Assembly (NCBI RefSeq): GCF_002368415.1
Contig: NZ_AP018290.1
Location: 4,229,614-4,293,613, forward strand
Source of the DNA: Calothrix sp. NIES-4105
Lineage (GTDB): Bacteria > Cyanobacteriota > Cyanobacteriia > Cyanobacteriales > Nostocaceae
Reading direction: 5' to 3'
DNA: 64,000 nt
In this document: positions 4,519 through 7,280 of the stretch, in pieces
Layout of the letters: the number at the start of each line of letters is the position of its first letter
Position numbering within the stretch: position 1 is the first letter of the stretch
Notes under the pieces: generated by a model
Told to the model about the DNA's origin: nothing
The model's database searches: none
What the model saw: the letters and a program-made list of their open reading frames with translations, nothing else
Position numbers and translations under genes: made by a program

Positions 4519-4852
4519 TTAAATTCCTGCTTCTGTAAAAGCTTGAGATATACTCTCAACAATATTAAGATGTTCTGCCCAATTGATGAGATAACTATAC
4601 TCAAGAGTATCAGATTGTGCTTTAAGAATTCCCAACACATCACGCCACTGTTTTTCAGATTGTTTACCTTTGCCCCATAGCAATTTTTGTAACACCAAGT
4701 CTTCAGGAGAAATTACCTAGAAATTTGGGCTATCTTCTACATCTAAAAATTTTCTGCGAGACATTTGAGAAACTGCAAATGGTGAATCATCCATCACATA
4801 TAAGTCAGCATTATTAATCGTTTCAGTATGTGTAACATTAAGCATCCTTTCT
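4519..4852 (-). pseudogene. Nucleotidyltransferase gene, 3' fragment split off by an IS
   Basis: Downstream part of a nucleotidyltransferase-fold gene whose 5' part lies at 6755-7280. Reading on the minus strand from the IS edge gives RMLNVTHTETINNADLYVM, then FAVSQMSRRKFLDVEDSPNF. An in-frame TAG follows at 4720-4722, then VISPEDLVLQKLLWGKGK continues in the same frame to FTEAGI and TAA at 4519-4521. Joined across the 8-bp duplication, the two fragments restore GRERMLNVT in frame, so the interruption is unambiguous. The TAG probably replaces a Trp codon (TGG) and is a second lesion, showing decay beyond the insertion. Nucleotidyltransferase-fold genes of this kind often act in toxin-antitoxin or tRNA/protein-modifying roles; the actual role is unknown. 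Confidence 0.85.
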
Positions 4853-5096
4853 GGGAGCATCCAGTTTTGGCAGAAATACCGAAACAAGAGGCGCCAAGAG
4901 ATAAGTACTCTCATTTTAAACATGGTTAATTACAATACTCACTACAAACACTACAAAAAAAGTACAATATTCATTTAACTTTCATCATTTAATTAATAAT
5001 TATTCTCAATACAAAACAAATAAACAATACTAACAAAAACTATATTCAGCACAAGCGGAGGCTACTAGCTTCAGCTAGGAGCGACGCCACGGCGCC
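4853..5096. repeat. 244-bp terminal inverted repeat, left arm
   Basis: Matches the reverse complement of 6511-6754 at 242 of 244 positions by base-by-base reading. It reads from GGGAGCATCCAG at the outer end to GGAGCGACGCCACGGCGCC at the inner end. The outer part supplies the first codons of the reading frame fused to the nucleotidyltransferase 3' fragment. Confidence 0.92.
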
Positions 5097-5678
5097 TAAA
5101 ATCAAGTTCATAAATCTTGATATTATAAAATACTTTGGAAGCTAACACAGAAAAATATCTAAATTATGAGATAATGCTTATTATCAGTAAAAGTGTGCAT
5201 AAACCATTATGAACCAAGATAAACTAGAACGTCTTAATGCTTGTCTAAAAGAAATGGCAGAAATATTGTATGAAGAAGCAGACAAAACTAATTTGACAGA
5301 CCTTGAAGGTATAGAAAAAACTGTACGTAGTCAAGTATTAGAGTATGTAAGTCCAGAAATTGCCCTTTTTTTGTTGAGAAAACAACGGGAACGAAAGTAG
5401 GTAAGAAAAGGAAAATAAAAAGCATTGTTGGGGAATTAAATCTGAAAGCTAAACAATTAGATAAACTAGGTTTGAAGCCCTTTAGTAGATTAAGTCCATT
5501 GCTTCAAAAGTTTTGTTTAAGAATATCAGCGCTCTGTACATATCAGAATGCAGAAATAGAGGTTGAAGCATTAACAGGTATTAAAGTTGGGCATTCAACA
5601 CAACAAAAATTAGTTTTAGAATACGAGTTTCAACTACCACAAGCAAAACAAAGTATTTCAGAAGTAAGTATAGATGGT

Positions 5679-5733
5679 GAGTCCAGTTGGCGGTGTCGGC
5701 TTCCGTCCCGCCAAACTGGCGAACCCGAAGGGG
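5679..5733. repeat. 55-bp palindromic repeat inserted in the transposase gene
   Basis: Contains CCAGTTGGCGG and, 14 bases later, CCGCCAAACTGG, forming a stem. The flanking coding sequence is exactly continuous when these 55 bp are removed (SIDG followed by GKVRLRG). The inserted length shifts the frame by one. Confidence 0.8.
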
Positions 5734-6041
5734 GGTAAAGTAAGACTGCGTGGACAACCAAAAGAAGGCTCTGACTGGAAAGATTATAAAGCGGTTCGCC
5801 TTCAAGGAATTTATTATTGTGCGTTTTTTGATGATAACCAATCGTTAATTGATTATATCAACAGTCAGCCATTAGTAAATCCACTAGTTTGTTTAGGAGA
5901 TGGCCATGATGGGGTTTGGAATTTAGCCAGAGAATTTGGGACACCAGAGTTTCAACAATTAGAAATATTAGATTGGTATCACTTAAAAGAAAATCTTTAT
6001 AAAGTTGGTGGTTCTTTAAAACGTCTAAAAGCTAGCGAAGT

Positions 6042-6068
6042 TGCCGGACAGAGTACTCTGTCCCGGCA
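6042..6068. repeat. 27-bp palindrome inside the transposase frame
   Basis: The core ACAGAGTACTCTGT is a perfect palindrome, extended by TGCCGG and CCCGGCA arms. It encodes part of an extra peptide (AGQSTLSRH) that interrupts the otherwise family-like run from LKRLKA to LLWQG. It is in frame, so it does not by itself abolish translation. Confidence 0.7.
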
Positions 6069-6510
6069 CATTCGCGCTGAGGCTCTTCTATGGCAAGGTT
6101 CGGTAGATGAAACTCAAGCTTTATTTACGGGGTTAAAAGGTAAACAAGCGAAAAAGTTTATTGCGTATCTTGATAAGCATAAATCTAGAATTGTTAATTA
6201 CAGTTATTATCAAGCTGAAGGAATATCCTCTATTGGTTCTGGAGCAGTAGAATCTGCAATCAAGCAGATTGGAAGAAGAATTAAAATTTCCGGGGCAAAG
6301 TGGAATATTGAAAGTGTTAATCAAATTCTAGGTGTTCGTTGCGCTTACCTAAACGGTTTACTTAACGTTTGAATTTGATATCTTTCTAAAAGTTCAAAAA
6401 CACGAACGCTACTACATACTGGTGTCCGTAAAATATAGAAATATTGTAAACAATTTATGATGCTGTATTGTAATTTTACAGTATCAATCAATTCATTTGC
6501 TTTAATTACA

Positions 6511-6754
6511 GGCGCCGTGGCGTCGCTCCTAGCTGAAGCTAGTAGCCTCCGCTTGTGCTGAATATAGTTTTTGTTAGTATTGTTTATTTGTTTTATATTG
6601 AGAATAATTATTAATTAAATGATGAAAGTTAAATGAATATTGTACTTTTTTTGTAGTGTTTATAGTGAGTATTGTAATTAACCATGTTTAAAATGAGAGT
6701 ACTTATCTCTTGGCGCCTCTTGTTTCGGTATTTCTGCCAAAACTGGATGCTCCC
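6511..6754. repeat. 244-bp terminal inverted repeat, right arm
   Basis: Reverse complement of 4853-5096 with two C/T differences. Its outer end abuts the 8-bp target duplication. Translation of the host gene fragment runs into it and ends after about 25 element-derived codons. Confidence 0.92.
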
Positions 6755-7280
6755 TCCTTTCTCGACCTTGCTTAATACCTTCTACAGCACCTTCCGGACA
6801 GTAAAATCTAGCAGCTTGTAATGTAGCTACCAAAAGGTCAATTTGCTCGCTTTGTATCTCAATTACCAAGTCTAAGTCACGAGTTGACCGAGATTCCCCA
6901 TAAATAGAACTAGCAACACCTCCACTAATATAATATGGAATATTTACTGACTCAAGTAATTGATGAATTTCCCCTGCTAAGGCAAAAGAGTCTTGTATCC
7001 ACATTTTTTGATCAATTCCTAATGGCTTAAAACCTGGATGAAACTTCTCAGCTAAAACAGCGCGCGCGAACCGTTCTCTAATCTCTTCTACAGAAGCATC
7101 TTTATGTCTCCACTTTATACCAGTGAGACACAATTTCCGTACACTACGGTCATGAGCAGAAGCTTGCGCTATTCGTTCCTGTAAAGACAACTCTCGCAGC
7201 TTACTAAAAAAGTAAACATCAGCTTCTATAGAAGTATCAGGCGCCTGTGGTCGATAACCTGCTTTTACACCTTGAATCAT
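6755..7280 (-). pseudogene. Nucleotidyltransferase gene, 5' fragment
   Basis: N-terminal two thirds of the interrupted gene, starting at the ATG at 7280 (MIQGVKAGYRPQAPD). I reject an earlier in-frame start at 7328 because those codons lie in a dispersed repeat. About 120 helical residues (KLRELSLQERIAQASAHD and RERFARAVLAEKFHPGF) precede the nucleotidyltransferase core: IPYYISGGVASSIYGE with the Gly-Gly turn, then STRDLDLVIEI, whose two Asp are the metal ligands of the DNA-polymerase-beta fold. The frame continues to GAVEGIKQGRER, meets the element and stops after element-coded residues at 6678. It lacks the C-terminal 110 residues found at 4519-4852, so it is not functional as a whole. Confidence 0.85.

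Follow-up and report, generated by a model that had tools for sequence, protein, structure and literature searches.

How an insertion sequence (IS) of a family with short ends comes to carry very long ones, and what keeps the two ends alike, is the question raised by an element in a 64,000-nucleotide stretch of the Calothrix sp. NIES-4105 genome (the window). A preliminary description of this DNA had noted that ISKra4-family elements usually have inverted repeats of tens of bases. This agrees with most of the relatives that we measured and with the 18–39 bp stated for prokaryotic Mutator-like elements in the available text of Guerillot et al. (2014, PMC3942029). The inverted repeats of the element in the window, here called arms, are 244 bp long. 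The best overall explanation, which we consider very probable, is that the element, which inserted with an 8-bp duplication, belongs to a small ISKra4-family clade with arms of ~245–295 bp instead of ends of ~25 bp, and that these long arms evolve in concert via gene conversion.

Limits, target site and transposase of the element

Realignment confirmed the 1.9-kb element with 244-bp arms that had been described. It occupies positions 4853–6754 of the window (1902 bp), with the tips GGGAGCATCC...GGATGCTCCC. The left arm (4853–5096, plus strand, GGGAGCATCC...GGCGCC) and its inverted version, the right arm (6511–6754, minus strand), match at 242 of 244 positions, and at both mismatches (arm positions 93 and 160) the left arm has C and the right arm T. 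A repeat of such length and identity is hardly due to chance, judging from the length. Agreement between the arms falls away just past the inner GGCGCC, where the left inner zone begins (5097–5208, plus strand); the first ~45 bp of this zone are side-specific and are not kept like the right side. An Rfam search of 4700–6900 gave no match up to E 0.5, and in a scan of 4800–6800 promoter and terminator sites were no commoner than in shuffled sequences.

The 8-bp duplication TCCTTTCT was found on both sides of the element (4845–4852 and 6755–6762, plus strand). To locate the empty site that the preliminary description had proposed seeking in close relatives, the element with 700-bp flanks was used as a query against seven genomes of the genus, and such a site was found in two, G006 and G003 (loci L212 and L213). 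The left and right flanks meet at one 8-bp copy in each, TTCTTTCT in G006 (flanks 91% identical) and TTCTCTCA in G003 (flanks 81–83% identical), and it is because of this single copy that the element plus 8 bp must have been added in the window. In both relatives the empty site lies within a minus-strand reading frame that is open for 309 or 286 codons between stops. The element therefore interrupted a gene, which from its motifs looks like that of a nucleotidyltransferase. At 4717–4719 (minus strand) the window has an in-frame stop in this gene where both relatives read on, so the target gene looks decayed besides the insertion.

The core of the element encodes a two-frame transposase on the plus strand. 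It starts with orfA (5209–5400, 63 aa, from the list of open reading frames), in which a T7 run within CCCTTTTTTTG (5366–5372) is where a −1 frameshift probably links orfA with orfB. The T run at this overlap is conserved, with 7 or 8 T in all five long-arm elements and 7 T in the six short-arm elements that were checked. Two parts of orfB were recognized with the NCBIfam ISKra4 profile NF033572, the first at 5331–5738 (frame open from 5331, first start at 5472; 4.6e-11) and the second at 5674–6372 (232 aa; 9.1e-53). These pieces score 42.5 and 179.8 bits, each under the profile's cut-off of 205 bits; the orfB products of two relatives described below, E3 (262.3 bits) and E5 (243.9 bits), are both above it. 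The parts are set in different frames by a 53-bp dispersed repeat (5678–5730, plus strand; limits by comparison with E3), which has nine more matches elsewhere in the genome (82–100% identical over 24–64 bp) and matches of up to 58/58 in relatives. By eye, the orfB of E5 contains a similar ~54-bp repeat, in frame and at another site, and in this genus short repeats may often enter genes, at times without breaking the frame. There is also an in-frame insert of ~42 bp in the window's orfB (6037–6078, plus strand; approximate limits judged by eye from translations) that is common to E5, and E3 is without it.

Judged by these features, the element is an ISKra4-family insertion sequence with a transposase of the prokaryotic Mutator-like type, ISMich2-like by the published group description. 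The ISMich2 group (p-MULT 4), whose hosts include cyanobacteria according to the available text of PMC3942029, is described there with two frames for which a −1 shift is proposed; here the two frames and the T run predict such a shift from the sequence alone. The element likewise has the terminal cytosine, and its 8-bp duplication is one of the two lengths, 8 or 9 bp, given for the direct repeats of ISMich2 and prokaryotic Mutator-like elements. It differs from the group as described there in having repeats of 244 bp rather than 18–39 bp and a tip of the right-end type at either end, and in the concerted evolution of its arms. Repeat length is a reported common feature in that text, in which the groups are named from the transposase tree, and we therefore take the long arms as a variation within the family. 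The element is thus a real IS, a variant member of the ISKra4 family whose ends are ~10 times the usual length.

Long-armed relatives

The host genome (12.04 Mb, 8 contigs) was searched for other copies of the arms, as had been proposed, and both an identical twin and a diverged relative were found. The twin, at C1:4692021–4693922 and 458 kb away, differs at 0 of 1902 positions and has different flanks; both C/T arm differences and the frame-breaking 53-bp insert are common to the two copies. The twin is without an 8-bp target duplication (ATATCTAC and AACAGGTT at its edges), and when its empty site was sought in relatives the flanks matched too weakly to call. The diverged element, E3 (C1:3665077–3666893, 1817 bp), has an open orfB of 314 codons and the same outer 24 bp as the window element; no 8-bp duplication was seen around it.

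The window element (E1 in the comparisons below) was probably mobile recently. Because the 53-bp insert splits the twins' own transposase gene, they probably moved with transposase supplied in trans, and E3, with its open gene and matching outer 24 bp, is a candidate source. The identical twins, the split frame and the open gene of E3 thus lend indirect support to recent mobility by another copy's transposase, one of three explanations that had been offered for the arms. The insert could, however, have passed from one twin to the other by conversion, which would mimic movement after the insertion, and the missing target duplication of the twin also speaks against such movement; frameshifting across the insert may occur.

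Three further full elements were found in two other genomes. Dulcicalothrix desertica PCC 7102 (G001) has E4 (2037 bp) and E6 (2209 bp), flanked by the duplications GGAAAAAG and ACGACGTG, respectively, and Calothrix sp. HK-06 (G003) has E5 (2113 bp, without a duplication and close to a contig end). By BLAST, the arms of E3–E6 are 239–296 bp long. Two shorter copies were also observed. L053:2449–2865 appears to be a coreless derivative (417 bp, 58-bp repeats, 7/8 duplication) that retains one whole arm with its inner zone and just 58 bp of the second arm. L054:2625–3824 is a decayed derivative (1200 bp, 8/8 duplication GATTATTA) that still carries core remnants.

Five contigs of G003 (L058–L062) stop 51–54 bp into arm-like tips, and the three that were viewed differ in their flanks, which suggests that this genome holds several near-identical long-armed elements that were left unassembled. 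Since long inverted repeats break assemblies in this way, the possibility that an assembly artefact made the inverted arm, which the preliminary description had named as a potential refutation, was considered. We regard it as extremely unlikely, because the identical twin has other flanks and four diverged elements have the same plan; the five full elements come from three genomes, the records of D. desertica PCC 7102 and Calothrix sp. HK-06 among them.

Repeat lengths were surveyed in 60 of 80 related loci (the remaining 20 were mostly partial): repeats of at least 200 bp occurred in three (E4, E5 and E6), of 69–81 bp in six and of 22–59 bp in 33, and 18 had no BLAST repeat. An 8/8 duplication flanks 25 of these 60 loci, including E4 and E6. 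In a transposase tree of 41 rows (the five full elements and 39 of the 60 loci, minus L077, L083 and L142, whose matches were short), onto which the surveyed repeat lengths were placed after rounding by hand, the five long-arm elements form a single clade (support 100/99). In the searches made, this clade was seen only in this genus. With a 292-bp arm as the DNA query, matches were obtained in 55 of 192 genomes of the family, the genus included; outside the genus, among the best three candidates per genome, those listed were 22–36-bp tips or short mid-arm stretches, and weak copies may have been missed. No arm match was found among 72,556 plasmid records, and viral contigs yielded two loci at 42% identity, both on the same contig.

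The sister group of the clade (99/91) consists of ten ~1.17-kb elements of Nostoc, Calothrix and their kin, such as L067 of Calothrix brevissima NIES-22 and L100 of Calothrix sp. NIES-4101, which also occur as ISKra4-annotated copies on Nostoc plasmids. They resemble the long-armed elements in their transposase (~70–75% identical), in the tip GGGAGCATCCA(C/G)TTTTGG and in their 8-bp duplications. Unlike the long-armed elements, eight of the ten have BLAST repeats of 22–29 bp (L072 has 47 bp at 81%, and L073 none), and their two ends are distinct past ~18 bp.

Origin of the long arms

Past ~18 bp the ends of the short relatives differ, the left continuing as ...GGAAGATTT and the right as ...GGCAGAAAG. 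When the arms of the six two-armed elements (E1, E3–E6 and L054) were scored against these two types, all 12 were nearer to the right-end type (20–36 vs 10–14). The best match of L054 is the right end of L077, via the stop-codon region. The inner ~90 bp of the arm, within which the inner GGCGCC sits, is a hairpin unit that is dispersed in the genus and occurs elsewhere without an IS (L023, L057 and the pair L214/L215). Right-end tips on both sides together with a dispersed inner unit make it probable that the clade originated when each side acquired extra DNA along with a tip of the right-end type. We had also considered the transposase gene or the 5′ end of the short relatives as the source of the arm body; this was rejected, as 29–298 of 300 shuffles were as good over 30 comparisons, and no signal stood above them.

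Two minor observations concern the hairpin unit. By eye, the hairpin close to the inner arm end retains its pairing in some copies in which the stem sequence has changed (GTTATAAGC/GCTTATAAC in the left arm of E4, GTTACAGGC/GCCTGTAAC in L053). In G006, a stretch of at least 2224 bp that contains the hairpin unit occurs at both L214 and L215, with 99.9% identity and in opposite orientation; the distance between the two loci is 2.85 Mb.

Arms far longer than those of the relatives, with both tips of one type as in a symmetric MITE, could also be expected if a 1.4-kb IS had landed at the central GGCGCC of a large palindromic MITE and the composite had then moved as a unit, as the preliminary description had suggested, and the solo arm-like pieces L022, L050 and L056 might be read in the same way. 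Such an event should have left old IS ends inside the arms, and these were sought on the left at TTTTGGAAG and on the right after the stop codon. A few of the single-element tests with dinucleotide shuffles were low (right end of E1, 16 of 2000 shuffles; left end of E6, 67 of 2000), but the consensus tests were weak, with 211 of 5000 shuffles on the left and 1773 of 5000 on the right. The remaining counts per 2000 were 473 (E1), 854 (E3), 1157 (E4) and 963 (E5) on the left, and 73 (E3), 912 (E4), 111 (E5) and 1081 (E6) on the right; simple shuffles gave 353 (E1), 936 (E3), 566 (E4) and 530 (E5) on the left and 230 (E1) and 5 (E3) on the right. The old left end was dropped because in L023 and L214 this stretch belongs to a dispersed repeat and no IS is present; the old right end is unproven. 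Moreover, each of the five full elements combines the arms with a related core, the copies in which the core is missing or decayed (L053 and L054) look like deletion derivatives or fragments, and no separate palindromic MITE was found among the best 40 candidates per genome in the genus or the best three per genome in the family. The MITE origin is thus not supported and seems to us improbable, also since it leaves the likeness of the arms in separate lineages unexplained.

Concerted change of the two arms

That likeness was analyzed in the six two-armed elements, which come from three genomes; lacking a second full arm, L053 and the solo arms did not enter these counts. The arms of E6 were pieced together around non-coding insertions. 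Left and right arms are identical at 242/244 positions in E1, 228/244 in E3, 228/255 in E4, 242/256 in E5, 233/253 in E6 and 153/171 in L054. For each pair of elements, informative sites were sorted into those joining the two arms within an element, those joining arms by side and those joining them crosswise. The arms gave 507/7/7 sites in these three classes (15 pairs, which share sites, so that the counts are not independent). In the ~45 bp just inside GGCGCC, which is a short zone, the counts were 7/31/8 (10 pairs, five elements), and the left and right inner zones of these elements are identical at only 18–25 of 36–40 positions.

The arm tree joins left with right in E1 (99/99), E3 (100/100), E6 (99/99), L054 (100/100) and E5 (81/89), whereas the inner-zone tree sets the lefts apart from the rights (85/99), being weakly resolved within each side; the one inner zone of L054 is of the right type. 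Since the inner zones sort by side across elements, the two sides existed in the common ancestor, and since the arms nevertheless pair within elements, they have been rewritten inside each one. The exception is E4, whose left arm groups with E5 and whose right arm is unplaced; its right arm is 89% like the right arm of E6 and 86% like its own left arm. Either elements also exchange sequence with one another, or E4 ceased to undergo conversion. With this exception, the site patterns make it likely that the long arms undergo repeated arm-to-arm gene conversion. Conversion between arms, the remaining explanation in the preliminary description, is in this way strongly supported as a repeated process in the clade by the site counts and the arm tree.

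Element-specific arms would also be produced without conversion if the arms were young and one end had been duplicated independently and recently in each element. We consider this very improbable, as the arm plan, the right-end tips and the side-sorted inner zones are common to the elements, and the inner-zone tree contradicts it. In addition, the arms of E1 are 76–82% like those of E3–E6, against 80–90% for mostly-core stretches; the arms are therefore not younger than the cores.

How conversion is brought about is a separate matter. The arms could exchange sequence by homologous gene conversion, with RecA-type pairing between inverted copies 1.4 kb apart, a process that would be efficient only once the arms are long enough. 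Such ordinary homologous conversion is the most likely route, although its trigger is less sure than arm-to-arm conversion itself. Alternatively, the arms could be equalized during transposition: in the circular intermediate of copy-out/paste-in elements the ends are 6–10 bp apart, and the arms joined there would form a ~490-bp near-perfect palindrome. Its replication or hairpin repair would overwrite one arm with the other, starting at the tips, so that every jump resets the ends. If true, this would make the element a bacterial Mutator-type transposon with symmetric, self-copying ends, although the first strand transfer of the route it uses is asymmetric. Circular forms with ends a few bases apart are reported for the superfamily (PMC3942029, available text), and circles have been studied for an IS256-family member (PMC7780238, available text). 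It is also consistent with copying from the tips that the zone farthest from them is not homogenized, that in six of six elements the mismatches are on average farther inward than the variable positions, and that arm likeness is highest in the lone element for which an identical twin was seen (242/244, vs 89–95% in the other five). This polarity is weak, however, with a Fisher p of 0.057 at the first cut (column 85) and 0.03–0.44 at three others, and P values of 0.04–0.42 for single elements, and end-to-end junctions were found in none of the 192 genomes by a test that requires exact matches and stable junctions. We therefore regard a link to transposition as possible but doubtful. In five elements the edge of the homogenized region coincides with one and the same GGCGCC. 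Randomly placed tract ends do not explain this, and it counts against the conversion reading.

ISWpi1 of Wolbachia provides a precedent for recombination, with gene conversion, between the two terminal repeats of a single IS copy (Ling and Cordaux 2010, PMC3004938). In the available text of that study the repeats are short (marker mismatch at position 17) and inversions occurred at 2 of 22 loci, whereas here lasting concerted evolution over ~245 bp is seen in a clade. Neither long-armed ISKra4-family elements nor concerted arms in an IS clade were found in the titles and abstract beginnings of open PMC articles, so their novelty is provisional.

Terminal repeats of a few hundred base pairs are a feature of eukaryotic MULEs. 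The available text of PMC3942029 describes a related transposase superfamily and similar duplications for these elements. The window element differs from them in its prokaryotic genome and ISKra4-type transposase, and does not qualify as a MULE. The likeness in arm length is probably convergence, because the long repeats sit in one clade among short-repeat bacterial relatives. The clade may therefore offer a testable bacterial case for the origin and persistence of long, MULE-like terminal repeats, and a natural experiment on how an IS lengthens its ends tenfold and what follows.

What follows can be seen by comparing repeats of ~25, ~75 and ~250 bp, over which evolution shifts from side-specific to element-specific. 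Repeats of roughly 20–30 bp gave 14/538/2 informative sites (10 elements), the opposite of the long arms and a sign that the ends of the ~1.17-kb elements are stable by side; repeats of 69–81 bp gave 27/56/14 (five elements). As judged from these site patterns, the homogenizing effect grows with arm length, and the graded shift over the three groups suggests that conversion within an element sets in above a threshold length. The ~1.77-kb relatives with 69–81-bp repeats (L101, L102, L104, L105 and L106) were observed to form a clade of their own. In two of them, L101 and L104, a second open frame of ~160 codons lies downstream of the transposase; according to the available text of PMC3942029, all the ISMich2 elements found in that study were simple IS.
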